From the NCBI GenBank assembly GCA_902786205.1, contig CADABQ010000004.1, positions 1 to 64,000 on the forward strand: a stretch of DNA of 64,000 bases, in the 5' to 3' direction. This document shows positions 2,021-45,688 of the stretch, one piece after another (within the stretch, counting starts at the first letter, position 1; every line of letters starts with the position of its first letter). This DNA comes from an uncultured Lachnospiraceae bacterium (GTDB taxonomy: Bacteria > Bacillota > Clostridia > Lachnospirales > Lachnospiraceae). Below the pieces are notes generated by a model. It was not told the DNA's origin, did no database searches, and was given only the letters and a program-made list of their open reading frames with translations. The translations under genes and the position numbers were made by a program.

Positions 2021-2031
2021 TTGATTTTCCT

Positions 2032-2889
2032 CTACAAAATTTTTCTTTCTACAATTCCACTTTCCATATCATCTATACTGTAAATATGTTCCATAACCTC
2101 AAATGTCTCTCTCAAATTACCTCTAGCACTCTTCCAACCGATTCCATCCGTAAACCATACAAATGTAAATCCATCCACTGTATCAGCCTCTTGTGATAGC
2201 ATCTTATAGCTTCTAGCGGTTTCGTTTAGCTTCGAACCGCCACCACCATAAAAGTTTGTCTCAATACCATAAATCATGTTATCCGTCTTGATAACAAAGT
2301 CAAATCTCTTTGCAGCCTTACCTTGATTAGAAAGCGCAGATAAATCGATATTCCATTTCTTTTCGACATCTTTCAAATACATTTCTTTGAAATAATTGAC
2401 CTCTTTCACAAAGCCTGCTGCCTGAATATATTTTTCAACCAGATTTTCCATCTGATGACCACCACGATTTTTTCTTCCGTTGGAATCCAATCCTGTTTCA
2501 ACACCTAATGCATAATCTACAAGGTTATTCACCAAATGATTAGCTATCATGTCAAACAATCCTGTTTTTTTCATGAACATTTTATATTGTTCCACATCAT
2601 AATTCATTTTCTTAAAACTATACAAAAATGCTCCATCCTCATCCTGTGCGTATATCTCATGACCTCTTACAGCTAAAAGAAGCGGTACACATCGTAATGT
2701 CTCTGGATACTTATCAATGATGCGCTCAAAATCCTCTTCTATATTCTTTGAACCAATCAAAGAATTCAAAATATTAAGTTCTACCTTGATTTCATCTACA
2801 TTTTTTACTACCTTATCGAAGTCAATATAATAATCATAACTTGAAATACTTGGTCTAAACTTGCTTAACCATTCATCAAAATCCCTCAT
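2032..2889 (-). CDS. DpnII-like type II restriction endonuclease (GATC)
   Basis: A 285-residue protein resembling the DpnII/MboI endonuclease family, which cuts unmethylated GATC. The conserved N-terminal region (LNSLIGSKNIEEDF, then LRCVPLLLAVRG) and the central motif ending DFVIKTDNMIYGIETNFYGGGGSKLNE fit a PD-(D/E)XK-type core with E-T-N in place of the usual E-X-K. A clear AAGGAGG site precedes the ATG. It lies downstream of two adenine methylases and a broken Mrr-like gene, all on the same strand with tiny gaps, the layout of the DpnII system. Recognition of GATC is inferred from similarity and from the methylase pair, not shown. Confidence 0.85.
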   Translation of the reverse strand: MRDFDEWLSKFRPSISSYDYYIDFDKVVKNVDEIKVELNILNSLIGSKNIEEDFERIIDKYPETLRCVPLLLAVRGHEIYAQDEDGAFLYSFKKMNYDVEQYKMFMKKTGLFDMIANHLVNNLVDYALGVETGLDSNGRKNRGGHQMENLVEKYIQAAGFVKEVNYFKEMYLKDVEKKWNIDLSALSNQGKAAKRFDFVIKTDNMIYGIETNFYGGGGSKLNETARSYKMLSQEADTVDGFTFVWFTDGIGWKSARGNLRETFEVMEHIYSIDDMESGIVERKIL

Positions 2890-2893
2890 GCTA

Positions 2894-3130
2894 CTATTCC
2901 TCCTTTAGTACAATTTCCACTTTGTCATTATAAATTTTCCAAATTGATTTTTTCGGAGAATACGAACCATCCTCTTTTATCAAGCCTGATTTGCGATACA
3001 ATTCTGTAATACCAGACAAATAACATCTCGTTTTATCTATATTCAAAGTTTTTATCTCATTATCGCCAAACACCACATCAACGGTTTTGTCCTCATCGTT
3101 CAAAACATCAATGAGTGCTTTTGCATTCTC
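2894..3130 (-). pseudogene. Frameshifted C-terminal fragment of the Mrr-like nuclease gene
   Basis: This frame continues the preceding Mrr-like protein after a one-base shift. It can be read upstream past its nominal TTG start as ENAKALIDVLNDEDKTVDVV, up to a stop beside the A4T4 tract at 3131-3138. The upstream protein instead ends in an unrelated tail (LRMQKHSLMF). Adding one A to the tract would restore one reading frame across the junction (...RAK-NFENAKALIDVL...) and give a protein of about 280 residues. The fragment ends KIYNDKVEIVLKEE. Alone, its 69 residues have no recognised domain and no good ribosome site. A separate overlapping gene with TTG start remains possible but less likely. 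Confidence 0.6.
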
Positions 3131-3735
3131 AAAATTTTAGCACGTATGTCATTGGCTGTAATCCTTTTATCAACGATTACAACTGGAACTTCCTGTTCCT
3201 CTGTAACTTCATCTTCTATTGGCATATCATCGCTGGTATCCCTCAGTGCGTTCATTGCACATTTGCTAAATACAGGAGTAAAGACAAATCCTATTTCATT
3301 GTCTATACAACTCTCCACCAATGTTTTACCGTCTATCAAAATAATTGGTCTTGTTAAATCCTCCTCAACAAATTCAATAGTCTTGTTTGAGTATCCTGCA
3401 GTCGTAATAAATACACCTTTACTCCCAGATGGCATCACACCTCTTAATGCACGCACCTTTTCTATTGGAATAGTCGTCCCTGGCCTATTTCTCTTTGCTT
3501 GCACAAAATACTCAACCGAATCTGCCCCTGCAAGTCCTCCTACTCCATATCGTATTGCCTTAAGATCTATTCCACCATCTCCCGAACGTTGCGTTACGAC
3601 TACTTCATCCAAACCAATCTTCTCCAAATACACTTTCAAAAACTCTTCAAAATCATATCCACTCTCAAAATAATCATAAAATTGTTCTAGAAAACCACCT
3701 AATTGTTGTTCCGATATTTCAATATTTTTCCTCAT
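3100..3735 (-). CDS. Mrr-like restriction endonuclease, truncated by frameshift
   Basis: A 211-residue product with an Mrr-type catalytic core: GDGGIDLKAIRYG near residue 53, YFVQAKRNRPG near 78 and GVFITTAGYSNKTIEFVEE near 110, matching the D-(Q/E)-x-K nuclease motif. Mrr-fold enzymes in restriction operons can act as modification-dependent or accessory nucleases. The start ATG overlaps the end of the upstream methylase by 17 bases, so translation is probably coupled. After codon RAK a one-base loss in A4T4 at 3131-3138 moves the frame and ends the protein early; the rest of the gene is in the next frame. The catalytic core is intact, so the product may still work; a sequencing error is also possible. 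Confidence 0.7.
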   Translation of the reverse strand: MRKNIEISEQQLGGFLEQFYDYFESGYDFEEFLKVYLEKIGLDEVVVTQRSGDGGIDLKAIRYGVGGLAGADSVEYFVQAKRNRPGTTIPIEKVRALRGVMPSGSKGVFITTAGYSNKTIEFVEEDLTRPIILIDGKTLVESCIDNEIGFVFTPVFSKCAMNALRDTSDDMPIEDEVTEEQEVPVVIVDKRITANDIRAKILRMQKHSLMF

Positions 3736-4531
3736 TAGTCATTTCCTTCTCTATTCTTTTCTTCGCTATTTGCAAATATTCTTCACAATTATCAATTCCA
3801 ACAAAAGTTCTTCCCATTCTTGTTGCTAGCACCCCAGTTGTTCCAGATCCACAAAATGGATCCATCACTACTTGTCCTTTCTCTGTTGAAGCAAGAACAA
3901 TTCGCTCCAATAAATACTCTGGTTTCTGTGTAGGATGCTTTCCTTCCTTCTTTTCAGACGGCTTTGTCAAACTTCCTGTCCATACATCCTTCATTTGTTT
4001 TCCATTGTTCATTTCTTTCATTGCCTGATAATTAAAAAAATGCCGAGACTTCTTCTCATTCTTCTGAGCCCAAAGAATTGTCTCTGTAGAATGAGTGAAG
4101 CATCGACATGCTAAGTTTGGCGGCGGGTTAGTTTTTTGCCAAGTGATATTGTTTATAATTTTAAAACCTTCTTGTTCTAATGCCATTCCTATGGAGTAAA
4201 TGTTATGTAATGTTCCAGATATCCAAATGCTTCCATTTGATTTTAATACTGTTTTACATAATCTTATCCACTTTCTGTTAAACTTATGTTTTCCCTCAAT
4301 GTTCATCTTCTCAGATGACAATTTATCCCATGAACCTTTGTTAACTGAAACCATCTTTCCACCCTGACAGGTTACTCCATCATTACTTAAAAAGTAAGGT
4401 GGATCCGCAAATATCATATCTACAGACTCTGATTTCATCTTCCTAAGAATATTAAACGAATCGCCTAAAATAAGCTTCGCCTCTTCCGTCTCGTAATAGA
4501 ATTTTACTTTCTTTTCAAATACTTCTTCCAT
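3719..4531 (-). CDS. dpnA: DpnA-like DNA adenine methyltransferase (beta class)
   Basis: An N6-adenine methylase of 270 residues. The catalytic motif IV MIFADPPYFLSNDG comes first (near residue 40) and the AdoMet motif VMDPFCGSGTTGVLATRMG comes near residue 230, the beta-class order of DpnA, which methylates GATC in DpnII strains, including single-stranded DNA. The start at 4531 is preferred because AAAGGGAG lies at proper distance; an upstream in-frame ATG at 4591 would sit inside the dpnM-like gene with no ribosome site. It follows dpnM with a 13-base gap and overlaps the Mrr-like gene. Confidence 0.85.
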   Translation of the reverse strand: MEEVFEKKVKFYYETEEAKLILGDSFNILRKMKSESVDMIFADPPYFLSNDGVTCQGGKMVSVNKGSWDKLSSEKMNIEGKHKFNRKWIRLCKTVLKSNGSIWISGTLHNIYSIGMALEQEGFKIINNITWQKTNPPPNLACRCFTHSTETILWAQKNEKKSRHFFNYQAMKEMNNGKQMKDVWTGSLTKPSEKKEGKHPTQKPEYLLERIVLASTEKGQVVMDPFCGSGTTGVLATRMGRTFVGIDNCEEYLQIAKKRIEKEMTNEEKY

Positions 4532-4544
4532 TACGAATCTCCCT

Positions 4545-5387
4545 TTAGTAGTTGCAAATAATAACTTCTTGCCCAACTCTATTGCTTGCATCTGAATTTA
4601 TCATTCGCTTCACACTTACTACATCTATTCGATAGCCTTTATTGCTATATAACTCATTGATCAACTCTGTATTGTGGTTAGTCAGCATACAATAACAACC
4701 TCGCTCTGTTAATTCGTCGTATAGCTTTGCAAGTCGCTTATGACTTTCCACATCAAAACCTTCTTTTGTATATGACTCAAACGATGTTGGGTTTAATGGA
4801 GCATACGGACTATCAATAAACACAAAATCTCCCTTGCCTGCATTTTTACATGCCGGCTGAAAATCTCCTTCCATAATTGTGACACCTTTTAGAAATTCAG
4901 AAACTGACATAATTGTTTCCTCATCACATGATGCTCGACGACTATTATTATAAGGGACATTATAAAGTCCCTTGCCATTTACTCGATACAACCCATTAAA
5001 ACAATGCTTATTAATGAAAACGAACAATGCAGCCAACTCTAAGTCAAATTCTTCCTTCATCAACTTATCATTATACTTTTCTCTAATATCATAATAATAA
5101 GCCTTTCCGTCTTCCCACATTTCTTCGTCGAGACACTTAACCGTATCTATGAATGCTATCGGTTCCTCAGCAATTACTCTATATGAGTTTATCAATGCCT
5201 TATTTATATCATTGATTACCGCATTTTTTGGCAACAATTCAAATGTAACTGCACCTCCACCAACAAATGGTTCATAATAGCAATTATAACTTTTGGGCAT
5301 ACGTTCTCTAATCTGTGGTATTAATTGGCGTTTTCCACCTGCCCATTTCACAAATGGTGTTGCACCTGCACTCTTCTTAACACTCAT
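4545..5387 (-). CDS. dpnM: DpnM/Dam-like DNA adenine methyltransferase (D12 class)
   Basis: A 280-residue alpha-class adenine methylase, first gene of the operon. It shows FVKWAGGKRQLIPQI at residue 13, the AdoMet motif YYEPFVGGGAVTFELL at 37 and the catalytic motif VFIDSPYAPLNPTSF near 190. The usual DPPY is DSPY here, a conservative change that leaves the D and the aromatic residue. D12 methylases of this kind protect GATC. About 90 bases separate it from the next methylase gene of system B, which is on the same strand. The promoter was not identified with certainty. Confidence 0.87.
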   Translation of the reverse strand: MSVKKSAGATPFVKWAGGKRQLIPQIRERMPKSYNCYYEPFVGGGAVTFELLPKNAVINDINKALINSYRVIAEEPIAFIDTVKCLDEEMWEDGKAYYYDIREKYNDKLMKEEFDLELAALFVFINKHCFNGLYRVNGKGLYNVPYNNSRRASCDEETIMSVSEFLKGVTIMEGDFQPACKNAGKGDFVFIDSPYAPLNPTSFESYTKEGFDVESHKRLAKLYDELTERGCYCMLTNHNTELINELYSNKGYRIDVVSVKRMINSDASNRVGQEVIICNY

Positions 5388-5478
5388 TGTATTACCTCAT
5401 TTCGTTTTCAATAGACATACCTCTTTATTATAAATCGTATCCCTAGAAATAACAAGCATAACTTCTTCTGATTGCCAG

Positions 5479-6201
5479 CTATTTTTGGAAAACAAATATA
5501 TATTCATGTGCTAATAACAAAAAATTACTGTTTTTGTTTTCCCAATATTTTGTTGATTTACAATTATGTTGCTCTTTGATAATTATTTCCTTATTCGTGA
5601 ACCCCTGTGCCACAAAACACTGCATCATTTCAAACCCTAACGGAATCACTTTTCCGTTCTTTCGAATATCCCCAATCATTATTGCACACATTTTCCCTTT
5701 TTTTAGAACTCTATACGCCTCTTTTGCCACTAACAACATCTGCTCTAAGAATTCCTTTTTATCTAACAAGGATATATCTCCATCTATATTTTTACTGTAT
5801 TGGATTATATTGGCATAAGGCGGATGAGTACATATGAAGTCAATACTTTTGTCCTTCAAAAAAGACAAATCAGTAGCATTTCCTAATTGAATATAAGTCT
5901 TTGGATTTGTTTCACATTGAAATTCCAGATTTTTTCTTGAAATAGAAATTGATTGCGGATTAACATCAATGCCAATCGCATTTCGATTAAGTAGCTTAGC
6001 CTCAACTATTGTTGTTCCGCTACCCACAAATTGATCTAACACCCAATCTCTGGGGCTAGTATAACGAAGTATCAGGTTTCTGGGCACATACGGTGACCAA
6101 TTACCTCGATATTTTCCAGAATGAGTTGCCCAATCTCCTCTGTTTGGAAATGACCAAATCGTTGTCATTTCTGGACTAAATCTATTTGGTTGTAATCTAA
6201 T
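5479..6201 (-). CDS. N4/N6 DNA methyltransferase of restriction system B, probable ATT start
   Basis: AdoMet-dependent DNA methylase with motif I WVLDQFVGSGTTIVEAKLL and motif IV FICTHPPYANIIQYS. The N-terminal TTIWSFPNRGDWATH and PYVPRNLILRY pattern is typical of this methylase group. The first ATG is at 6168 (229 residues) but has no ribosome site. A strong AAGGAGG lies further upstream, and the frame between is open, reading IRLQPNRFSPE, which looks like genuine family sequence; the best-spaced codons are ATT at 6201 or 6204. I therefore extend the gene to 6201. It is divergent from the C-protein/endonuclease pair and is probably the protective methylase of that system. Whether it makes m4C or m6A cannot be told. 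Confidence 0.75.
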   Translation of the reverse strand: MRLQPNRFSPEMTTIWSFPNRGDWATHSGKYRGNWSPYVPRNLILRYTSPRDWVLDQFVGSGTTIVEAKLLNRNAIGIDVNPQSISISRKNLEFQCETNPKTYIQLGNATDLSFLKDKSIDFICTHPPYANIIQYSKNIDGDISLLDKKEFLEQMLLVAKEAYRVLKKGKMCAIMIGDIRKNGKVIPLGFEMMQCFVAQGFTNKEIIIKEQHNCKSTKYWENKNSNFLLLAHEYIFVFQK

Positions 6202-6239
6202 AATAAAAACCTCCTTTTTTCCGCAGGTGCACAGAATTT

Positions 6240-6268
6240 ATTATACGCCTTAATACAAGTTATGTCTA
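6240..6268 (-). promoter_or_regulatory. Promoter of the system B methylase
   Basis: On the minus strand TAGACA (6263-6268) and TATAAT (6240-6245) are 17 bases apart, a good sigma-A promoter directed at the methylase. C-box 1 lies a few bases upstream of its -35. Confidence 0.6.
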
Positions 6269-6273
6269 CAACT

Positions 6274-6288
6274 TTCACTATAAGTGAA
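6274..6288. promoter_or_regulatory. C-box 1, controller protein operator
   Basis: Palindrome TTCACTATAAGTGAA in the divergent control region. The outer five bases on each side (TTCAC, GTGAA) match exactly those of the second palindrome at 6319-6333. It lies just upstream of the -35 regions of both divergent promoters, a place suited to activation of the C gene or repression of the methylase. Confidence 0.65.
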
Positions 6289-6318
6289 TTTAAGAACCAT
6301 TTTAATCATGAGATAATA

Positions 6319-6333
6319 TTCACAAATAGTGAA
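6319..6333. promoter_or_regulatory. C-box 2, controller protein operator
   Basis: Palindrome TTCACAAATAGTGAA, 31 bases from C-box 1 and 11 bases before the C-protein ATG. It follows directly a GATAAT -10 box (6312-6317) and would cover the C-gene transcription start, suited to repression at high C-protein level. Confidence 0.65.
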
Positions 6334-6344
6334 AGAGGTGTACT

Positions 6345-6587
6345 ATGTCGCAAATGAATGATGTCGAACTCTATAAAATCATAGGCTCTAATATAAAAAA
6401 ATACAGAGAACAAGCACAACTCACTCAAGCACAACTTGCCGAACGCACCCAGATTAGCATTAGCTATATTTCCAAAATCGAGGCAATTGGTTGTCACAAA
6501 AGCTTCTCTCTCTCTGCTTTAAATCATATTGCAAATGTTCTCAACGTCGAGATTACTGAATTTTTTAAGGAGGATAAACACAAATGA
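6345..6587 (+). CDS. Restriction-modification controller (C) protein, XRE HTH
   Basis: A small 80-residue helix-turn-helix protein: IGSNIKKYREQAQLTQAQLA then ISISYISKIEAIG, and a C-terminal NHIANVLNVEITEFFKE, the single-domain XRE form typical of C proteins. It has an AGGTG ribosome site before its ATG. Its stop overlaps the start of the endonuclease gene (ATGA), so the two are co-translated. C proteins delay endonuclease expression after entry to a new host and bind paired palindromes near their own promoter, which fits the two TTCAC-N5-GTGAA boxes just upstream. Confidence 0.8.
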   Translation: MSQMNDVELYKIIGSNIKKYREQAQLTQAQLAERTQISISYISKIEAIGCHKSFSLSALNHIANVLNVEITEFFKEDKHK

Positions 6588-7243
6588 AAATATTAGATGC
6601 AAAATTAAAAATAGAAAAATTAGCTAACATTCCGTTTAAGGAATATTTATCTCCAGCACAAATTGAGGATGCAGAAATGATAATAAATAAAGGAAAAACC
6701 GGGCAACTATTAGAACTTACTATAGGATTAAACCTCTCCAATACTACACTCGACTTTGAAGATGGAGAATTGAAAACAAACAAATCAAACAGTTTAGGTC
6801 AACCAACTCAAACAATGTTTATCACACAAATCGCATCCATTATAGATGAACTACTTTCTATAAAACCATTCGAAGAAACAAAATTGTATAAAAAAATAAG
6901 TAGAATGCTCTATGTTCGCATTAGTAAAGATGGTTCACCAAGCGAATGGATGTTTTTAGAACCAATACTTGTCGATCTTGCATTAGATAAATACTCTGCA
7001 CTCGCAACGCAATTAGAAACCGATTATCTTGACATATGTGATGCTTTAAATGATCAATTATGTACTTCCTCTAAAGCAATGCTGCACACAACTAACGGAA
7101 AATTCATTCAAATTCGCACAAAAGATAGTCGTCCATATAAGCCCATTTATTCTCAAAGCTATAAAAGAGTTGTTTCTGACAAAAACAGGGCATTTTATTT
7201 TAAGCTCGATGGTCTGAAATATATTGTTTCGCTTGGAAGCTGA
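6584..7243 (+). CDS. MutH/Sau3AI-fold restriction endonuclease
   Basis: A 219-residue nuclease with the MutH-family pattern: NKGKTGQLLELTIGLNLS near residue 26, then LDFEDGELKTNKSNS near 48, giving the E...D-x(n)-E-x-K catalytic set of MutH and Sau3AI. It resembles MutH, but a mismatch-repair role is unlikely because it is encoded with a controller and faces a methylase. The start overlaps the C-protein stop by four bases. A strong hairpin terminator follows. Sau3AI-group enzymes often cut GATC, but the site of this one cannot be deduced here. Confidence 0.75.
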   Translation: MKILDAKLKIEKLANIPFKEYLSPAQIEDAEMIINKGKTGQLLELTIGLNLSNTTLDFEDGELKTNKSNSLGQPTQTMFITQIASIIDELLSIKPFEETKLYKKISRMLYVRISKDGSPSEWMFLEPILVDLALDKYSALATQLETDYLDICDALNDQLCTSSKAMLHTTNGKFIQIRTKDSRPYKPIYSQSYKRVVSDKNRAFYFKLDGLKYIVSLGS

Positions 7244-7289
7244 TCTAAACATCTGCATTTCACACTTTTTTTTCATTTATGTCATCAAT

Positions 7290-7320
7290 AAATGCTAGTC
7301 ACATAAAATGACTAGCATTT
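7290..7320. terminator. Bidirectional hairpin terminator
   Basis: Perfect 12-base arms (AAATGCTAGTCA at 7290-7301 and its complement at 7309-7320) with a 7-base loop, T-rich on both sides. It lies between the converging endonuclease and relaxase genes. Confidence 0.85.
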
Positions 7321-7337
7321 TCTCATTTTCTTTTTGC

Positions 7338-8849
7338 TTATCTCCTACACATCTCCTCCAACCTTCTCCTTTCCTTGCCCCATCTCAATATTTCCTCCAA
7401 ATCCGCTATCAAAGCCTGCATATTGGCACCCAACTGCTCCACTGTTCCGCTTCGCTTTTCAGCTTTAATCTCATGCTGTAAATCTTCTTTTCTATACTTC
7501 TCTTTTGTATCTACATTCATATAGCCAAATACTTCATAATCGTAACCATTACTCCGTTCTATAAAGATTGGTGCTACCTCTCCCTTTGATGTTTTCCAAT
7601 GCATCAATCGCGGAAACCAACATATTCCTTCTTGAAGCAATTCCTTAAATGCCATCAGCAGCTTTCCAATTTCATATAGTATGCCGTGAAATGAATTGCC
7701 TGCCTCAATTCGCTTTCCACTTTCTACCTGATTTGCATATTCTTCTATGGTTGGAGCAAATAATTGGAAGCCTGACACAAAAGATTTAAACTTTTCCAGT
7801 ACACCTAAAGCCTCTTTTACCTGTTTCATCTTATCCTCAAGTTCTCGTTCTGCCGATAACAATTCACTTCTTTTATCTGTTACTTCTCCGATTAGCTGGA
7901 TATATTCTTTGTTCTCCCAATCAGACAATCTTCGTTTCACCTCTCGTTGCTGTTCGATAGTCTTGATTTCTTCCTCTAGCTGTTCCTTTTTACCTGAATA
8001 TTCAGCTTCCACTGCCTCCTTTCGTTCTTCTAGTTGTTTAACTTCCTTCTGTGTATCTTCCTTTTTCATCGTTTCTTGTGCATATTCAATCTTCTTTATC
8101 ATCAAATCGTCTTCCACATCAAACAATTCATCCTTTGCTTTCTGCAAATTTTCTTGTTCCTTTGAAACCTTATATTCCAATACGGATAAATCACGATTAC
8201 GTCCTTTCCTTTTTGTTTTTATTTTTCCTTCAAAATAAAGCTTCATAGAATTTTGAGCAACCTCTCGTAACTTATCCTGCAATATTACTGACATGGTCTC
8301 AGGTGTAAATACATTTCTTTTAGAGACCTTCTTTTTTAATCCTCTCTTTGCTCCTTCCCACACAGGAACACCAACCACATGCATATGAGGGCTAGCCTCA
8401 TCAAAATGAATGACAGCATTTGCCACCTTAAAATCAGGTAGCAATTTTTGCATTTCCTCCAATATATCACAGTACACATCACACATATAATCTTTTTCGC
8501 TGCTATGAGCCTGCCAATATGCTCGATCACCACATTGAAATATGATTTCTACCGCTAAGTCCTGATCTAGGTTTGCAACATGCTCAAAATAATCATCAAT
8601 TCTACGTTCTGGTCTTTTTTGTTTTTGGTTATATTCTTCTACCACTTTTCCGAATTCCATTTTATAAACTCTTTTTACATCACGATACAAATCATATGTT
8701 CCACATATAACCTCAGCGCCATGACGATTGTATGCATCTGACTTATATTTTCTTAAATTGTGTTTTGCCACAGCAAGCAATTTACTCTTACTTGTAATGG
8801 CACTTTTCTTATTGCTGACATGTGCTGTATATGAAATATGCTCCATAAG
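7338..8849 (-). CDS. MobV/Pre-type plasmid mobilization relaxase
   Basis: A 503-residue relaxase that nicks oriT and pilots DNA in conjugative mobilization. The N-terminal domain has NLRKYKSDAYNRHG and the metal-binding motif HFDEASPHMHVVGVP, characteristic of MobV. A long coiled coil follows (roughly residues 215-350, rich in E, K, Q). I choose the ATG at 8849 (MEHISYTAHVS) because AAGGAGC precedes it; an in-frame start at 8897 lacks this site. A likely oriT lies just upstream. With integrase and RepA-like ATPase nearby, it marks the region as a mobilizable element that needs a helper conjugation system. Confidence 0.9.
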   Translation of the reverse strand, partial: LMEHISYTAHVSNKKSAITSKSKLLAVAKHNLRKYKSDAYNRHGAEVICGTYDLYRDVKRVYKMEFGKVVEEYNQKQKRPERRIDDYFEHVANLDQDLAVEIIFQCGDRAYWQAHSSEKDYMCDVYCDILEEMQKLLPDFKVANAVIHFDEASPHMHVVGVPVWEGAKRGLKKKVSKRNVFTPETMSVILQDKLREVAQNSMKLYFEGKIKTKRKGRNRDLSVLEYKVSKEQENLQKAKDELFDVEDDLMIKKIEYAQETMKKEDTQKEVKQLEERKEAVEAEYSGKKEQLEEEIKTIEQQREVKRRLSDWENKEYIQLIGEVTDKRSELLSAERELEDKMKQVKEALGVLEKFKSFVSGFQLFAPTIEEYANQVESGKRIEAGNSFHGILYEIGKLLMAFKELLQEGICWFPRLMHWKTSKGEVAPIFIERSNGYDYEVFGYMNVDTKEKYRKEDLQHEIKAEKRSGTVEQLGANMQALIADLEEILRWGKERRRLEEMCRR

Positions 8850-8890
8850 CAACGCTCCTTCCTTATCTGTAATCCCCCGCGAAGCCCTGC

Positions 8891-8952
8891 TTATCATCTT
8901 GGCTCTGCCATAGATGATAACCCCCTAGCAGTTTTGGCAAAGCCAAAATTGC
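8891..8952. other. Candidate origin of transfer (oriT)
   Basis: Two nested inverted repeats lie directly upstream of the relaxase gene: TTATCATCT (8891-8899) with AGATGATAA (8912-8920), and an 11-base pair at 8928-8938 and 8942-8952 with a three-base loop and one mismatch (GTTTTGGC/GCCAAAAT core). A CCCCC run sits between them. MobV oriTs normally lie just before mob and contain such hairpins. Assignment is from position and structure only. Confidence 0.5.
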
Positions 8953-9027
8953 GGTGGCTCTCCGAGGGTGTTCATCATTTTACTTTTGTCATCAAGAATT
9001 TAATAATCTGTTCTTTTAAGAACTACA

Positions 9028-9057
9028 GACTCTAAACTCTTTGTAGAATTTAGAGTC
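9028..9057. terminator. Hairpin terminator after the RepA-like gene
   Basis: Perfect GACTCTAAA (9028-9036) / TTTAGAGTC (9049-9057) inverted repeat. It lies just past the 3' end of the minus-strand ATPase gene. Confidence 0.6.
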
Positions 9058-9080
9058 CGCTTCTATAAAAAAATAAATTG

Positions 9081-10085
9081 TTAAACTCTTTCTTCTGGCA
9101 TTACCCATGTCCAATAGGTTGTGCCATCTTCTAGCTTTCCTTTCCCAGACAATATTCCAAGTTTCTTCTTTGCTGATAAAAGAGTATTTCGTTTTATTCC
9201 TCTCTTACCTGCTTCTCTTAAAATATCATTGGATAAAATTTCTTTGTTATCGCCAAAGTATTCTTTAATAAAATCTTCTGCAATATCAAGCTTTTTCTTT
9301 CCTCTACCTTCTTTTCCGATAAGCAACTCATCAATAGTAATATCATAAGGTCCGATACACACCATTCCTTGCTCCTCTGTCATTTCAAATCCTATGGCAT
9401 CACCTATCGGTGCCAACGAAGATTTGTCATGAGCCATAATGCGTATATTAGGTTTGTTCTGCAATCTTGCAACCAACAATACACTTCTAGCTGTTGCTTG
9501 AATATCAATAGAACCAAGACCACGATATGTTGATTTACTTCCTGCTGCTTTGTTCATATGACCGATAAGAATAATTGCACAATTGTGTTTTTCCGCTATC
9601 ATTCCCAAATGCTTTAACACTGGTCTGATTTCATTTGCCCTGTGCATATCTACCTTTGCTCCGATATACGCCTGAATAGGATCTAGAATAATCAGCTTTG
9701 CTTTTGTTTCTACAATTGCCTTCTCTAGTCTTTCATCTGTCATACACAATTCTTTTTCAGTTTCGTCAATCACTCGTATCATAGAACAATCTGCACCTGC
9801 CTTTTCTAATCTTGGCTTTATGGTATCATCAATACCGTCCTCTGCTGTCTGATAAATAATATGGATAGGCTCTCGCTCCCTATCATCATCACAAGGAAGG
9901 GGCAAGCCCTTACTAAGAGCTGCCGCCAACATTAAAACAAGCGTTGTTTTTCCTTCCCCTGGATCTCCTTCTATGATTGTGATTTTCCCATATGGTATAT
10001 AAGGATACCATAGCCATTCCACCGCTTTTGCCACCACATCTTCCATACGAATAAGTTTTAATTCTACATTCTGTTGTTCCATCAT
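9081..10085 (-). CDS. RepA-like RecA-fold ATPase / replicative helicase
   Basis: A 334-residue AAA/RecA-fold ATPase of the RSF1010 RepA type. Walker A GDPGEGKTTLVLML near residue 40, Walker B KLIILDPIQAYIG near 130, and ILIGHMNKAAG and STYRGLGSIDIQATARS motifs further on are typical of hexameric helicases encoded by mobilizable plasmids and integrated elements. The C-terminal part (residues 250-330) may be a winged-helix region. A GGAGG site precedes the ATG. It follows the small DNA-binding gene with a 14-base gap, so both probably share the strong promoter at 10391-10419. It likely supports autonomous replication of the excised element. Confidence 0.8.
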   Translation of the reverse strand: MMEQQNVELKLIRMEDVVAKAVEWLWYPYIPYGKITIIEGDPGEGKTTLVLMLAAALSKGLPLPCDDDREREPIHIIYQTAEDGIDDTIKPRLEKAGADCSMIRVIDETEKELCMTDERLEKAIVETKAKLIILDPIQAYIGAKVDMHRANEIRPVLKHLGMIAEKHNCAIILIGHMNKAAGSKSTYRGLGSIDIQATARSVLLVARLQNKPNIRIMAHDKSSLAPIGDAIGFEMTEEQGMVCIGPYDITIDELLIGKEGRGKKKLDIAEDFIKEYFGDNKEILSNDILREAGKRGIKRNTLLSAKKKLGILSGKGKLEDGTTYWTWVMPEERV

Positions 10086-10099
10086 AAACCTCTCCTCCT

Positions 10100-10342
10100 T
10101 TATTCCTTCGTTGATTCACTGTTAAAATAACCTGTTTCTTCCCAAACTCTTTTATCCGAACAGTAATAACTAAATTCTTTCGAATTTCCCACCTTTATTG
10201 CCGTTCCAAATTTGAGTATTCCTTGTTGTATTCCCAGCCTTACATACTGTGCATCCTTTCCAATTGCCTTTGCAATTTCTTTTATTGGTACATTTCTTCC
10301 TGTAAAAGCTGGCAAATCAACCTTATAAATATTCTCTGGCAT
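10100..10342 (-). CDS. Small MerR/excisionase-like DNA-binding protein
   Basis: An 80-residue protein with a predicted helix-turn-helix: PIKEIAKAIGKDAQYVRLGIQQG followed by a basic beta-hairpin-like part (FGTAIKVGNSKEFSYYCS). This matches small proteins often found next to RepA ATPases and integrases in Firmicutes elements, where they act as excisionases or replication regulators; which one cannot be decided. It is first in the operon with the ATPase and starts downstream of a strong promoter with repeated operator-like sites. Confidence 0.6.
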   Translation of the reverse strand: MPENIYKVDLPAFTGRNVPIKEIAKAIGKDAQYVRLGIQQGILKFGTAIKVGNSKEFSYYCSDKRVWEETGYFNSESTKE

Positions 10343-10359
10343 CTCTACCGCCTCCTTCC

Positions 10360-10380
10360 ACAGAGCATTATTTGCTCTGT
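10360..10380. promoter_or_regulatory. Operator-like palindrome ACAGAGCA-N5-TGCTCTGT
   Basis: Perfect 8-base inverted repeat between the -10 box and the start of the 10342 gene. The same TGCTCTGT half-site occurs again at 10409-10416, overlapping the -35 box, so one regulator could cover both sides of the promoter. The divergent XRE protein is the obvious candidate. Confidence 0.6.
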
Positions 10381-10390
10381 TGTATTATGC

Positions 10391-10419
10391 ATTATACAGA
10401 CCTTCTCTTGCTCTGTCAA
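10391..10419 (-). promoter_or_regulatory. Consensus sigma-A promoter for the small DNA-binding protein / RepA operon
   Basis: Minus-strand TTGACA (10414-10419) and TATAAT (10391-10396) with a 17-base spacer: a perfect consensus promoter. A TTGACT box of the divergent XRE gene lies at 10437-10442. Confidence 0.85.
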
Positions 10420-10488
10420 GTGTTTATAATTTAATGTTGACTAATAAATTTTAGTATGTTACATTTACATATACAGGAGGTTGATACA

Positions 10489-10923
10489 ATGGATACAGGT
10501 AAAAAGATTAAACTAATCCGTACATTTCGCGGATTAACGCAAAAAGAACTTGGTGAAGCCTGCGGCATACATGAGGTTGCAATCCGAAAGTATGAACTAG
10601 GCAAGAATGTACCAAAGCACGAACAACTTCGTAAAATTGCAGAAGCATTAAATGTGAATGTAAATTCTCTAATAGAGTTTGATATTCAAGTAGATGGTGA
10701 TGTATTACCTTTACTATTTGCAATTGATGAAGTGTTTGATGTTTCACTTCGAGATCTTGACGGAGAGCCAGGCATCTTCTTTTCAAACAAAAGCCTTATT
10801 CAATTTTTAAAGGATTGGCAGGCTATGAAAGAATTGCTAGAGAATGGTAGTCAAACCATAGACAATTATGAAATATGGAAAACAATCCGTCCAAGTGTAA
10901 CAAAAGTGATACACGAAGACTAA
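10489..10923 (+). CDS. XRE-family regulator of the mobile element
   Basis: A 144-residue repressor-like protein. The N-terminus is a canonical HTH (KKIKLIRTFRGLTQKELGEA, then IRKYELGKNVPKHEQLRKIA) ending in LNVNVNSLIEFD; the C-terminal half (residues 65-144) has no recognised domain. The ATG at 10489 follows AGGAGG; an upstream in-frame start at 10456 is unlikely. It is divergent from the RepA operon with operator-like palindromes between, so it probably represses the element's replication or excision genes. Confidence 0.8.
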   Translation: MDTGKKIKLIRTFRGLTQKELGEACGIHEVAIRKYELGKNVPKHEQLRKIAEALNVNVNSLIEFDIQVDGDVLPLLFAIDEVFDVSLRDLDGEPGIFFSNKSLIQFLKDWQAMKELLENGSQTIDNYEIWKTIRPSVTKVIHED

Positions 10924-11017
10924 TCATTTATCTGGTAACAGTTCAGCTAATGGCTAATCTGTTGCTTTATCCGTTCGTTGTCAGCTTGCTGATTATATAA
11001 CGAAAGGATTGGTGCTT

Positions 11018-12073
11018 ATGAAGTTACCCAACGGATACGGAAGCGTTGTTAAACTTTCCGGAAAAAGAAGAAAGCCTTATCAGGTCAGAAAAACAACAGG
11101 CTGGCACTATGATAAGGAAAAGGACAGACAAATTCAGGATATGATTACAATTGGATACGCAGCCACGCGCGCTGAAGGCTTACAGATGCTTGCAGAGTAC
11201 AACAATAATCCATTCGATACTAAAGCCGCCAAGATGACCTTCTCCGATGTATATGAAGAATGGTCCAAGCGTAAGTATCCTACAGTATCCGAATCCAATG
11301 TCAAAGGATATACTGCATCCTATAAGGCATGTGGTACCCTCTACAACAAAGTTTTTAAGGATATTCGATTAGTGGATTTGCAAAATGTCATTGATACCTG
11401 TGGTAAGAATTATCCTACTCTCAGGAAAATCAAAGTACTTTTCAATCAGCTTTATGATTACGCCTTGAAAAACGATATTTGCAACAAAGATTATTCAAGT
11501 TTTGTGGATGTAGCACAGTACAAAGACCGCAACCCGAATAAGTATGATAGAAACAAATTTGAGAAAGATGAAATTGAGAGAATCTGGGAACAGAAGGACG
11601 ATAAGTATTATCAAATTGTTCTGATGCTTCTCTACAACGGAGTCAGAATTTCAGAATTTCTTGATTTGAAAAAGAAACATGTTCATCTTGATGAACAATA
11701 CTTTGATGTAATCAGCAGTAAAACAGAAAATGGCATCCGAAAAGTCCCCATTGCAGATAGGGTTCTTCCTTTCTACAAGAGTTGGTACGAATCCTGTCCT
11801 GACTGTGAATATCTGCTTCATACGGAAGACGGAAAGCATTTTTCTTACAGAAACTATTATGACAGCTACTTCCATCCATTAATGGAACAGTTAAAGATTA
11901 ATCACACACCTCACTGTTGCAGACACACATGTGTGTCTATGTTGGCAGAAGCTGGTGTAGATCAGACAATTATTAAGAAAATTGTGGGGCACTCTGGAGC
12001 CATGTCACTTACAGAAAAGGTATATACCCACTTTGATATTAAGGAGTTAGTAGATGCGATTAATAGAATTTAG
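11018..12073 (+). CDS. int: Tyrosine site-specific integrase
   Basis: A 351-residue phage-type integrase. The N-terminal part includes an arm-type/AP2-like stretch (NGYGSVVKLSGKRRKPYQVR), a SAM-like core-binding domain at residues 70-160, and the catalytic domain with R (NGVRISEFLDLK), H-x-x-R (HTPHCCRHTCVSML), a second H (IVGHSG) and the nucleophile Y (EKVYTHF). ATG at 11018 follows GAAAGGA; in-frame TTG/GTG at 11009/11012 are alternatives. It is the last gene of the mobile region and points at the 3' end of rpsI, as integrases adjoining their attachment site do. Confidence 0.92.
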   Translation: MKLPNGYGSVVKLSGKRRKPYQVRKTTGWHYDKEKDRQIQDMITIGYAATRAEGLQMLAEYNNNPFDTKAAKMTFSDVYEEWSKRKYPTVSESNVKGYTASYKACGTLYNKVFKDIRLVDLQNVIDTCGKNYPTLRKIKVLFNQLYDYALKNDICNKDYSSFVDVAQYKDRNPNKYDRNKFEKDEIERIWEQKDDKYYQIVLMLLYNGVRISEFLDLKKKHVHLDEQYFDVISSKTENGIRKVPIADRVLPFYKSWYESCPDCEYLLHTEDGKHFSYRNYYDSYFHPLMEQLKINHTPHCCRHTCVSMLAEAGVDQTIIKKIVGHSGAMSLTEKVYTHFDIKELVDAINRI

Positions 12074-13408: not shown

Positions 13409-13704
13409 TAAATTTTTCTATAAAATCAAGAATAAAAGGTAACAGTTCTGATAGACAGAAAGGATAATGCATATTGCACATGATTTATAAAGGCTTTTTG
13501 AACAATACTTCTATTTACCTAAAACAAAAGTAACAAAATAATCACTTTATTTTTTTCTTTCTTGCCTACTTTTTACAATCATCTTCCTTTTTCATTCCAC
13601 TATTAAAGTCGTTTCCTACAATTGTCACAACCTATAATTTGTATTTTTTGTAATTTTTTGTTATAATTTATAAGTAAATGTTACGTATTATTAGGGGGAA
13701 TATT

Positions 13705-15801
13705 ATGAGGGAGCAATTAAAAAAAATTATTTTTAAAATTGAAAATATTTATTTTCTAAATGTGCTCCGGCATGGTCTAGTTATGCTTATTCCGTTGATT
13801 TTAATAGGGGGTACTGCCAATGCATTGCTAAATCTGCCGCTAGCTCAATATCAAACTTTTTTAGCATCACCTTATTTTCATTGGATTCGTTCTTTGTTAT
13901 CCATTGTTTACGCAGGAACTTTCGGCATATTTTCTTTAGCACTGGTTATTACTACCAGCCTTAGTTTTGCTATGGGAAAAAATGAAACACCAGATAAAAC
14001 TGCCAATTTTATTTTAATTGCATTGCTTTCCTATGCTGTACAACTCAATTTTGTTTCATCAGATTTTAAAATTACAGATATAGGCATAACTGGTTGTTTT
14101 ACTGCGCTCCTTGTTTCTATTTTATCTTGCTATATGTATGATGCGTTAAGGAAACAGAGTATTTTTCAATTTTCAAACCAGACAACGAGTATGGAGGGAA
14201 TTTGCGCAAATGCTATCCAAGGCATCTTTCCAGGTGGTATTATCGTATTATTTTTTGCTTCTTGTACCTTGCTTTTACACCATATTTTCGGAGTAAGTAA
14301 TATTAATCGCTTGTTATCTATTTCCCTTTGCAATTTATTTTATAATATTAAGCAACCGTTTTGGGGTGGACTGCTTTATACTATTTTACTACATACGTTT
14401 TGGCTTTTGGGCTTCCACGGCAGTCATATCATGGAACCGGTCGCACAAACTAATTTCCAAATTGATACAAATGCTATTTTTAATAAAAGTTTTTTTGATA
14501 CTTTTATTGTTATGGGCGGCTGTGGTACTACCATCTGCGTACTCCTTGCCCTGCTTTTGTTTTTTTCAAAAGACAGACAAGGAAATATCGCTAAATTTGC
14601 ACTCCCTACCGTAATTTTTAATATTAATGAAATGCTTAACTTTGGTCTTCCTATTGTTTTAAACCCTATTTTAGCCATTCCATTTTTGGCAACTCCAATT
14701 CTTTGTTACTGCATTTCTTATAGTGCATGTGCTATCGGTTTTCTTCCTCCTGTTACCCATGAGGTTACTTGGACAACACCGGTACTATTTAGTGGTTATT
14801 ATGCCACCGGATCCATTAATGGAACCATTGTCCAACTCACTTGTATTTTATTGGGTATTTTTATTTACTTACCATTTTTACATTATCACAAACGTTTTCA
14901 AGAACTTCGTGCCAAAGAACAATTGGACGAAATTATTAAACATTTACACCAAATGGAAGAAGACAATGAACAACCCGATTTTTTAAGTCGTTCCGACCGA
15001 TTAGGTGTTACCTCACGAATGTTACTACAAGATTTGAAAATTGCAATTAAAGAAAAGGAATTATTTTTGCTCTTTCAACCACAAGTAAACGAAAATAGTC
15101 TCTGTCTTGGTGCAGAGGCATTGCTTCGCTGGAATCATCCCGTATATAGGTTTATTTATCCTCCTTTTATCATCTATCTGGCAAAGGCTGGTGGAATATT
15201 ACCAGAATTAGAAACACTGCTATTTGATATGGCAGGAGAGTCTATCCAAAAAATACAAAAATCCTACAAAGGTGATTTTAAAATCTCTGTAAATATAACA
15301 GCCAAATCACTTTTATGGGATATTGAAACTTGCATTCACAACTGTTTAGATACCTACCATATCCCTGCCAACAGACTATGGTTAGAAATTACAGAACAGG
15401 ATGTTATTTCAAATTCAAATCAGGTCATCGAAAAACTAAACCGTTTAAAATCTCTTGGGCATACTTTACTGATCGATGATTTTGGAATGGGACATACTTC
15501 ATTGATTTACTTGCAATCAAACTATTTTAATGTTGTAAAACTAGATGGCTCACTGGTAAAAAAGATGTTAAATTCTGATACGAACCAAAAGATCATTTCT
15601 TCTATTGTTAAACTTGGAAAGGAACTGGATATCGATGTTATCGCAGAATATGTAGAAAATAGAGAACAAAGAAATAAACTATTAGAATTAGGTTGCACAC
15701 ATTACCAAGGCTATTTGTTTGAAAAACCGCTTCCATTAAACCAATTTATTCAGTTCATTACCAAGAATACTACTATATCTACTCAAAAAAAAGCAAACTA
15801 A
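13705..15801 (+). CDS. PTS EIIC (lactose/cellobiose type) membrane domain fused to an EAL phosphodiesterase
   Basis: A 698-residue fusion. Residues 1 to about 405 form a polytopic membrane domain of the EIIC-CelB type, with WLLGFHGSHIMEP and INEMLNFGLPIVLNPILAIP, the conserved sugar-pocket segments. After a charged linker (residues 410-455) comes an EAL domain with AEALLRWNHP near residue 471, SVNITAKSLL, LWLEITEQD, IDDFGMGHTSL near 591, KLDGSL, AEYVENREQ and QGYLFEKPLP: the metal- and c-di-GMP-binding residues appear intact, so the enzyme should hydrolyse c-di-GMP to pGpG. No EIIB or EIIA is seen, so the EIIC part may sense rather than import sugar (inference). ATG at 13705 follows AGGGGGA. 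Single gene with its own terminator. Confidence 0.88.
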   Translation: MREQLKKIIFKIENIYFLNVLRHGLVMLIPLILIGGTANALLNLPLAQYQTFLASPYFHWIRSLLSIVYAGTFGIFSLALVITTSLSFAMGKNETPDKTANFILIALLSYAVQLNFVSSDFKITDIGITGCFTALLVSILSCYMYDALRKQSIFQFSNQTTSMEGICANAIQGIFPGGIIVLFFASCTLLLHHIFGVSNINRLLSISLCNLFYNIKQPFWGGLLYTILLHTFWLLGFHGSHIMEPVAQTNFQIDTNAIFNKSFFDTFIVMGGCGTTICVLLALLLFFSKDRQGNIAKFALPTVIFNINEMLNFGLPIVLNPILAIPFLATPILCYCISYSACAIGFLPPVTHEVTWTTPVLFSGYYATGSINGTIVQLTCILLGIFIYLPFLHYHKRFQELRAKEQLDEIIKHLHQMEEDNEQPDFLSRSDRLGVTSRMLLQDLKIAIKEKELFLLFQPQVNENSLCLGAEALLRWNHPVYRFIYPPFIIYLAKAGGILPELETLLFDMAGESIQKIQKSYKGDFKISVNITAKSLLWDIETCIHNCLDTYHIPANRLWLEITEQDVISNSNQVIEKLNRLKSLGHTLLIDDFGMGHTSLIYLQSNYFNVVKLDGSLVKKMLNSDTNQKIISSIVKLGKELDIDVIAEYVENREQRNKLLELGCTHYQGYLFEKPLPLNQFIQFITKNTTISTQKKAN

Positions 15802-15830
15802 CATCTAAAAAATTCTTATTATTTTGAAAA

Positions 15831-15868
15831 GAGGATAGCACATTTTACCTTTCAAACGTGCTATCCTC
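15831..15868. terminator. Bidirectional hairpin terminator
   Basis: Perfect 11-base arms GAGGATAGCAC (15831-15841) and GTGCTATCCTC (15858-15868), with A/T-rich flanks on both sides, between the converging EIIC-EAL and histidine kinase genes. Confidence 0.85.
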
Positions 15869-15979
15869 TTATATTTACAAGAGTATTGAGCTTAAAATCC
15901 ATACCTATACGAAATTTTTGCAATTATCACAAAACAAGGACAACTTGCAAGACATAGTGCCCATAGTTTTTCTATTCTT

Positions 15980-19377: not shown

Positions 19378-19545
19378 GTCAACTACCCATCACCTAAAGG
19401 TAATGGGCTTGTAACTGCCCAGTCGTAGTAACGGCTTATGCCTCCGACCTTTGACCCCAATAGGTATTATTACCTAAAGTGGCGTTACATTATAGGGTGG
19501 TTGACAACACCCTTTACGACAAAGTTTACTCTGCCGTAACTGTAT
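19378..19545 (-). ncRNA. Candidate omega RNA (reRNA) of TnpB
   Basis: The 3' region of tnpB through the element end has the usual omega-RNA layout: structured scaffold, then a final hairpin (AAGCCCATTACC core) and GGTAGTTGAC directly at the element end. The guide would be the adjoining host DNA read on the minus strand below 19378, starting ATTGCTATTATCATTC. Scaffold length is not determined; start at about 19545 is a guess. Confidence 0.5.
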
Positions 19546-20665
19546 CAGGTACTTGACTATCTTCGAGATAGTTGATTCCCATGCGGTACAGATTCATAGC
19601 TCCAATACGGTCATCGTTAGATTTATAGCCACAGTTCTTACAAGTAAACAGATGTATCTTCTTGTTGCGGTTAGACTTTTCAATGTGTCCACATACAGGA
19701 CAGCACTGACTCGTATAACGAGGGTCAACCTTAATAACAGTAGACTGATTCTGTTTAGCCTTGTAGATGAGTTTTTGTTCAAGGTCATAGAAAGACCATG
19801 ACACAGAAACATAGCGGTCTTTAGTCCTCACACGCTCTGTAGCATTGCGAACGCCCGACAAATCTTCAAGGACAAAGAGTGTATGCTTCGGGTTGTTCAG
19901 GGCGAGTGCCTTTGACACACAATGGTTTACATCCTGCATCCAACGGTTTTCTCGCTGACCGATAGCTTTAATCCTACGTCTTGCAGATGGAGTGTGACGC
20001 ATTTGGAGTTCTTTACGAAGTTTAGAATAGTGAGCACGTTTCTGTTTGATGGATTTACCACTGACAAATCCAGACTTGTGCTCACTATCATAGGTGGCAA
20101 CAACAAAGTTAATACCTCTGTCAATGCCAACAACATTGCAGATGTCAGAGATATTGCTTTCCTCTACATCATAAGTGACAGGGATATGCAAAAAATATTT
20201 GCCATGCTTATTTACAAGCTTGGCTGTACCAAACTTATAGATTGTATGGTCAAAGTATTTAGACATACCTTTAGTGAAATAAGGCAGCTTAACACGTCCA
20301 TTCAGAGTATTTACTGAAAAGCAATTTTGCGTCAGGGAATAATCCCTGTTCCAAACAAGGTCGTACTGTGGTTTCTTGAAATTAGGCTGAATCCACTCTT
20401 TCTGATTTTCAAGAATGGTTTTGTATCTTGCGATAACCGTCTTAAACACGGACTGAGCCATTTGGGATTTAAGACCAAACCTTTCTCGAAGTGTGGAATA
20501 CAGAACCTTATTCAAGGAAAACTGCTTTAAGTCGTGAGTACGGAATACATAGTTAGACACGTAGTTACAAGCATCAGAATAAACAGACATGGTTTCATCA
20601 AGTAAAACCTTACAGTCTGCATTAACGGATATCTGAATTTTAGCCGTAACTGTCATCTGTTCCAT
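19526..20665 (-). CDS. tnpB: TnpB, RNA-guided nuclease of the IS605 family
   Basis: A 379-residue TnpB. The RuvC-like nuclease shows the first Asp in VVGIDRGINFVVATYD (near 188), the Glu in LFVLEDLSGVRN (near 270) and the last Asp in SNDDRIGAMNLYRMG (near 355). A zinc ribbon of two C-x-x-C pairs (CCPVCG and CKNCG) lies between the last two. The N-terminal HTH_OrfB part is present, so the protein is full length. Family members cut DNA next to a short TAM under guidance of an omega RNA taken from the element's right end. Whether all catalytic residues work cannot be shown here. Confidence 0.93.
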   Translation of the reverse strand: MEQMTVTAKIQISVNADCKVLLDETMSVYSDACNYVSNYVFRTHDLKQFSLNKVLYSTLRERFGLKSQMAQSVFKTVIARYKTILENQKEWIQPNFKKPQYDLVWNRDYSLTQNCFSVNTLNGRVKLPYFTKGMSKYFDHTIYKFGTAKLVNKHGKYFLHIPVTYDVEESNISDICNVVGIDRGINFVVATYDSEHKSGFVSGKSIKQKRAHYSKLRKELQMRHTPSARRRIKAIGQRENRWMQDVNHCVSKALALNNPKHTLFVLEDLSGVRNATERVRTKDRYVSVSWSFYDLEQKLIYKAKQNQSTVIKVDPRYTSQCCPVCGHIEKSNRNKKIHLFTCKNCGYKSNDDRIGAMNLYRMGINYLEDSQVPDTVTAE

Positions 20666-20683
20666 AAAATCACCTCATAGATA

Positions 20684-20720
20684 TTTCACTAAATATATGT
20701 TATACTATTCATTAGTGAAA
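20684..20720. promoter_or_regulatory. Inverted repeat in the tnpA-tnpB divergent promoter
   Basis: TTTCACTAA (20684-20692) and TTAGTGAAA (20712-20720), perfect arms around a 19-base AT-rich spacer with a TATACT box. Probably the shared control site or an RNA hairpin in the tnpA leader. Confidence 0.5.
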
Positions 20721-20744
20721 GTCAATATATTTGAGGGATTCGAT

Positions 20745-21149
20745 ATGGATAATAGATATAACCGTCATAACAGACGCAAATACAGTCTGAAAGTGCATAT
20801 AGTTCTTGTTACAAAGTACCGCAAGCAAATACTTAAAGGTTCTATCGCTGACGATGTAAAGCAAAAGATATACGATATCTGCAATTATAAAGGTTACGGT
20901 ATTATAGCTATGGAAACTGATAAAGACCATATACATTTTCTTATCAGCTATGATACCACGGATAGAGTTTGCGACATGGTAAAACTTATTAAACAGCAGA
21001 CCACATACTATCTTTGGCAGAAATATCCAAACTTTTTGTCTAAACAGTATTGGAAGAAGAAAATCTTTTGGTCTGACGGATATTTTGCTTGTAGTATAGG
21101 TGAAGTATCATCATCCACTATACAAAAGTATATCGAGAGCCAAGGTTAA
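20745..21149 (+). CDS. tnpA: TnpA, IS200/IS605 Y1 transposase
   Basis: A 134-residue single-strand transposase. It has the HUH motif in DKDHIHFLISYD, the conserved start KYSLKVHIVLVTKYRKQIL, and the catalytic tyrosine in IQKYIESQG near the C-terminus, followed by a normal end. ATG at 20745 follows GAGGGA; in-frame starts upstream (20697) overlap the regulatory repeat and lack a site. Full length, likely active. Confidence 0.93.
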   Translation: MDNRYNRHNRRKYSLKVHIVLVTKYRKQILKGSIADDVKQKIYDICNYKGYGIIAMETDKDHIHFLISYDTTDRVCDMVKLIKQQTTYYLWQKYPNFLSKQYWKKKIFWSDGYFACSIGEVSSSTIQKYIESQG

Positions 21150-45628: not shown

Positions 45629-45688
45629 TGGTTTCCTCCATCTGTTCTTTAAACAAAGTGGACAAGTCCACATCAACTCCCTATCCCC

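Follow-up and report, generated by a model that had tools for sequence, protein, structure and literature searches.

The gene at 13705–15801 (plus strand) of the window, by which we mean the whole 64,000-nucleotide stretch of DNA that was analysed, encodes a single protein of 698 aa in which an EIIC domain of the phosphotransferase system (PTS) is followed by a complete EAL domain. To judge from its sequence, this protein is real, selected and widely distributed, and is most likely a sugar-sensing c-di-GMP phosphodiesterase that arose from a retired permease. We favour, at a probability of roughly 0.6, a reading in which the former permease senses sugar and thereby controls the hydrolysis of c-di-GMP, with PTS phosphorylation taking no part, the whole forming a stand-alone membrane phosphodiesterase.

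The gene, its domains and its borders are as follows.

13693–13698, plus strand: AGGGGG resembling a ribosome-binding site, 6 nt 5' of the ATG at 13705 (sequence).
13705–15801, plus strand: EIIC-EAL fusion gene, 698 aa (ORF, Pfam, orthologues).
13729–14913, plus strand: PTS EIIC domain of the lactose/cellobiose superfamily, residues 9–403 (TIGR00410, 1e-51; 3qnq, 7.5e-43; 3qnq is also the top Foldseek hit).
14815–14961, plus strand: last transmembrane (TM) helix running on as a cytosolic helix, residues 371–419, the linker to EAL (AlphaFold model).
15028–15729, plus strand: predicted EAL c-di-GMP phosphodiesterase domain, residues 442–675, with the full catalytic set (Pfam, solved-structure match, alignment).
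15830–15869, no strand: AGAGGATAGCAC/GTGCTATCCTCT, a perfect inverted repeat of 12 bp behind the stop codon (sequence).

An alternative in-frame start, the ATG at 13678, has no ribosome-binding site. Pfam recognises PTS_EIIC (PF02378) at residues 23–331 (E 8e-21, 74.8 bits, cut-off 30.7) and EAL (PF00563) at residues 442–675 (E 1e-56, 192.1 bits, cut-off 31.3), while the lacE model of NCBIfam (TIGR00410) aligns end to end with residues 9–403 at 176.3 bits, under its curated cut-off of 236. By sequence and by fold the nearest solved structures are ChbC (3qnq, 7.5e-43) and the EAL domain of BifA (8arv, 1e-44); Foldseek assigned the EIIC fold to 3qnq with a probability of 1.00 (E 1.3e-18, rmsd 8.3 over 427 columns). 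The inverted repeat behind the gene is probably a terminator, common to the EIIC-EAL gene and the convergent histidine kinase gene, which the terminator scan missed because its loop is 16 nt.

Of 397 genomes sampled from the same family, 47 contain a relative; at the threshold applied there is one in each, and one of the 47 matches residues 9–448 only, at a contig end. A scan of genome contigs gave 207 relatives, of which 80 were kept; these come mainly from Lachnospiraceae, but isolates of Treponema porcinum and of Geosporobacter and Synergistaceae MAGs are also among them, some of the MAG labels possibly reflecting binning errors. Plasmid-collection records with the fusion belong to C. difficile, Acetoanaerobium, Tritonibacter, Photobacterium and Vibrio, so that the statement in the initial annotation that EIIC-EAL fusions occur in databases of Clostridia was correct as to their existence and too narrow as to their range. 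One of these records (NZ_CP149720.1, 39159–53255, a C. difficile “plasmid”) may in fact be chromosomal DNA that was assembled wrongly, as rlmH and adenylosuccinate synthase adjoin the EIIC-EAL gene there. In one MAG (L012:1438-3576, L089:6054-8192) an in-frame stop lies between the EIIC and EAL parts, representing either a sequencing error or a natural separation. A phage origin was considered and rejected, as a match to at least 80% of the protein's length was not found in any phage record.

In a tree of the EIIC parts of 83 fusions together with 31 canonical EIICs, a single branch with 100% SH-aLRT splits the fusions from the canonical proteins, which is consistent with the fusion having arisen once within the sampled sequences. 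Values of dN/dS in close pairs (Nei-Gojobori, simple counts) are about 0.05–0.30 for EIIC and 0–0.24 for EAL, and both halves are under purifying selection. Since the fusions recur in several phyla and both domains are under such selection, the gene is not a chance ORF.

The residues Q458, E471, N530, E561, E564, D591, D592, K612, E648 and Q668 of the EAL domain are 100% invariant in the 83 non-redundant fusions, and the domain is most likely a c-di-GMP phosphodiesterase, as predicted from these positions. Its loop 6 (residues 591–599) reads DDFGMGHTS in place of the common DDFGTGYSS, with M595 and H597 invariant in 57/57 aligned fusions.

Conservation in the EIIC part was scored in ChbC numbering across the same 83 fusions, with canonical EIICs as the yardstick. 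The conserved positions, which we take to line the sugar site from their place in ChbC and from what is known of its structure, fall into three motifs.

14401–14421, plus strand: pocket motif WxxGxHG, where W233, G236, H238 and G239 correspond to ChbC W245, G248, H250 and G251 (at least 93% in 83 fusions).
14620–14667, plus strand: pocket motif NINEMLNFGLPIVLNP, where E309 and N320 correspond to ChbC E334 and N345 (99% and 95% in fusions).
14770–14781, plus strand: WTTP, where W356 corresponds to ChbC W382 (99% in fusions).

The pocket residues W233, H238, E309, N320 and W356 are thus all present in the protein studied here, and across the fusions (ChbC numbering) W245 is kept in 96%, G248 in 99%, H250 in 93%, G251 in 100%, E334 in 99%, N345 in 95% and W382 in 99%. 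They are also kept in most proteobacterial fusions, the exceptions being H250, which is N in the Photobacterium fusion, and W382, which is F in that of Vibrio. Many EIIC positions away from the pocket vary freely across the fusions. The initial annotation had described an EIIC-EAL fusion at 13705–15801, of the cellobiose type with its pocket motifs and with all key EAL residues, and our results bear out every one of these points, as shown by the place of the ORF and by both domains, by the alignment to TIGR00410, the match to 3qnq and the pocket residues, and by the full set of metal- and substrate-binding EAL residues, invariant in 83 fusions.

A different picture emerged for the cytoplasmic loop between TM4 and TM5.

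14170–14226, plus strand: eroded TM4–TM5 cytoplasmic loop, residues 156–174, canonically IKMPxxVPPxVxxSFxxL (0/7 canonical invariants kept in fusions).

The seven loop positions (I170, P173, V176, P177, V180, F184 and L187 in ChbC numbering) are 87–100% conserved in canonical EIICs and at most 28% in the fusions, P177 being at 0%; D27 and P223 (same numbering), near-invariant in canonical EIICs, are lost as well. Canonical invariants were kept at 0/7 positions in the loop versus 25/39 elsewhere (lost 7/7 versus 14/39; Fisher p=0.002). As the loop region had been singled out after inspection of the data, a shuffle test on the longest run of losses was carried out, which gave p=0.038, 0.0011 and 0.0002 at thresholds of 0.8, 0.5 and 0.3, respectively. 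The fusions from C. difficile and proteobacteria show the same pattern of kept pocket and lost loop, with small exceptions. The question raised in the initial annotation, whether the EIIC has lost transport residues, therefore receives a divided answer: the sugar-binding residues are kept, while the TM4–TM5 loop motif, D27 and P223 are lost. The corresponding cytoplasmic loop of glucose-type EIICs extends to the transport domain of the neighbouring protomer, and a proline hinge connects TM5 with an amphipathic helix (PMC11393339, PMC12900739). Given this role of the loop in glucose-type EIICs, its loss could by analogy mean that EIIB no longer docks, that the elevator motion is altered, or both; taken alone, it does not prove that EIIB can no longer dock on an EIIC of the lactose/cellobiose type.

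The partners of a PTS permease are missing too. PF02255, the EIIA of the lactose/cellobiose type, has no match in the whole source genome and is absent from 40/47 fusion genomes; it occurs in the remaining seven, and these are exactly the ones that possess a separate canonical EIIC. The sole PF02302 EIIB match of the source genome sits within a 647-aa PTS protein, so that there is no free-standing EIIB, and 18/47 fusion genomes are devoid of PF02302 altogether. With HMMs built from canonical operons, neither EIIA nor EIIB was found in the flanks of any of 140 fusion loci, and the same HMMs detected EIIA in 26/39 and EIIB in 29/39 canonical loci; these absences hold at the thresholds used, and unusual EIIA/EIIB types would escape. 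A genome with a functional PTS permease should carry cognate EIIA and EIIB, and this pair was not found here. The earlier remark that no EIIA or EIIB is near can thus be extended to the entire genome for EIIA of the lactose/cellobiose type and for free-standing EIIB.

How binding might reach the EAL domain is suggested by the predicted structure. In the AlphaFold monomer model (mean pLDDT 89.5, pTM 0.81) an unbroken helix, residues 371–419, leads from the last TM segment into the cytosol and is followed by a short link and then EAL. F391 and Q458 lie 67 residues apart in 68/83 fusions, and a linker of such near-constant length is what mechanical coupling would lead one to expect. EAL domains function as dimers. 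As EIICs of this kind for their part move as dimeric elevators (reviewed in PMC7329351), it is plausible that a ligand switches the protein by shifting the transport domain. We propose that the EIIC pocket would bind a sugar from outside, the likeliest ligands being beta-linked disaccharides of the cellobiose/chitobiose class, and that binding would move EIIC among its elevator-type conformations. This shift would be passed on to the EAL domains because the last TM helix is unbroken and the linker near-fixed, and would alter their arrangement, probably the dimer state, and hence the rate of c-di-GMP hydrolysis; phosphate borne by EIIB would play no part in the signalling. As to sign, the balance tips slightly, little beyond even, towards sugar activating the phosphodiesterase and so lowering c-di-GMP. 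Within this best explanation we infer that the EIIC part would not transport. The initial annotation suggested that c-di-GMP breakdown may be coupled directly to sugar outside the cell, and this emerges as the best-supported reading, by inference from the kept pocket and catalytic sites, the absent partners and the near-fixed linker. The conservation of the pocket could, on the other hand, stem from residual transport or facilitated diffusion.

Other readings of the EIIC part have to be weighed against this. A working PTS permease might borrow its EIIB, for example from glucose- or fructose-type EIIs, with EAL reporting transport; the retained pocket glutamate and histidine would fit, as would the presence of two other multi-domain PTS proteins (744 and 647 aa) in the genome and the cross-talk documented for glucose-family PTS transporters in B. 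subtilis (PMC6148471). That cross-talk is, however, among glucose-family systems and does not extend to an EIIC of the lactose/cellobiose type, and with lactose-type EIIA and free-standing EIIB missing from the genome, PF02302 missing from the 18 genomes mentioned above and the loop motif invariant in canonical EIICs gone, we consider borrowing unlikely. Strong purifying selection on the entire EIIC fold and pocket would also suit an unphosphorylating facilitator (a transceptor) that passes sugar and signals simultaneously; yet the loss of D27, P223 and the loop may impair the elevator stroke, and sugar-catabolic genes do not recur in the flanks, which makes this improbable in our view.

If EIIC were a membrane anchor, or the sensor of a signal other than sugar, its score under the lacE curated cut-off and the free variation of many positions outside the pocket would be understandable, but conservation has fallen on the sugar-site residues, for which a mere anchor would have no use, and we give this reading only a small chance. 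In the PTS, EIIA and EIIB are phosphorylated and EIIC itself is not; for this reason, and because the cognate EIIA and EIIB are missing, EIIC as a phospho-receiver under PTS phosphorylation control was rejected as the best reading. Although that is the wording of a 2022 review (PMC8846402), we regard it as very improbable.

The genomic setting supplies a network into which a sugar sensor of the favoured kind could feed. The source genome (3.37 Mb, 99.98% complete), which is placed with Lachnospiraceae by the named relatives of genomes from the same family and genus, has 18 GGDEF matches, 6 EAL matches including the EIIC-EAL protein, and 2 c-di-GMP-I riboswitches, from which we conclude that a c-di-GMP network exists. 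At 44573–48091 the window encodes another c-di-GMP protein of 800 aa (PAS-GGDEF-EAL) and, immediately behind it, a response-regulator protein that is extended at its C-terminus by a long stretch. The EIIC-EAL gene itself stands alone: upstream, on the opposite strand, are the ribosomal genes rplM-rpsI, and downstream a histidine kinase/response regulator pair runs towards it. No conserved operon partners recur in 78 loci, merely scattered two-component, ABC and GGDEF/EAL genes; no c-di-GMP riboswitch or other Rfam element lies near the gene, the single match in the window being RNase P, and sigma-70 promoter signals showed no excess over shuffles.

Elsewhere in the window, a probable integrative mobilizable element (212–12073) adjoins the 3' end of rpsI and carries a tyrosine integrase (11009–12073), a Mob_Pre relaxase (7338–8897) and an AAA ATPase (9081–10085). 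Its putative cargo, as read from the ORFs, is a restriction-modification set of two DNA methyltransferases (3719–5387) and an Mrr-like nuclease (3100–3735), together with an OLD-like ATPase (212–2020); no convincing att-like repeats were found for it. An IS200/IS605-type element with divergent TnpB (Cas12f1-like_TNB domain) and Y1 transposase TnpA genes occupies 19526–21149. The region 48780–51785 encodes a putative surface protein of 1001 aa, which has a legume-lectin-like domain and repeats and ends in an anchor-like tail.

To our knowledge, the signals that feed c-di-GMP networks are largely unidentified and direct sugar inputs are few. We put at even odds the broader proposition that this is a widespread one-protein sugar receptor, a permease devoid of phosphotransfer partners and interface through which extracellular disaccharides would switch c-di-GMP independently of both PTS phosphorylation and uptake. 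If true, this single protein would link the c-di-GMP pool of gut and rumen Lachnospiraceae, and that of C. difficile, to dietary or host glycans, and would represent a case of a PTS transporter evolved into a sensor, with a route that is easy to test experimentally. In the literature searched (mostly freely readable papers), the architecture appears in the 2022 review alone, and no paper was found that examines what an EIIC-EAL protein does. The architecture is thus already on record and functionally uncharacterised; what is new here is the evidence for the eroded loop and for the orphan state.

The 2011 C. difficile c-di-GMP census reportedly lists an EIIC-EAL protein. The C. difficile protein WP_003435700.1 shares 36% identity over 98% of the protein, with the same pocket residues and the same loop loss, and is annotated merely as “EAL domain-containing protein”. 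Randall et al. 2022 (PMC8846402) name the same architecture, counting PTS_EIIC among the rare receiver domains of DGCs and PDEs and terming it a phospho-receiver, and give no mechanism specific to EIIC; our evidence on the fusions points instead to an orphan, probably phosphorylation-independent sugar sensor. The permeases ChbC, CelB and LacE (3qnq; TIGR00410) have the fold and pocket residues in common with the fusion at about 30% identity, whereas the fusion scores under the lacE cut-off, is devoid of the loop motif, D27, P223 and cognate EIIA/EIIB, and has gained an EAL domain. A parallel in function would be EIIA-Glc/PdeS of Vibrio cholerae, where, as far as it is summarised in PMC8846402 (citing Heo et al. 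2019), a PTS component likewise controls a c-di-GMP phosphodiesterase in response to sugar; in that system the EIIA is soluble and phosphorylated and binds to a phosphodiesterase that is a protein of its own, whereas in the fusion a membrane EIIC is covalently joined to the phosphodiesterase and a phosphorylation partner is not evident.
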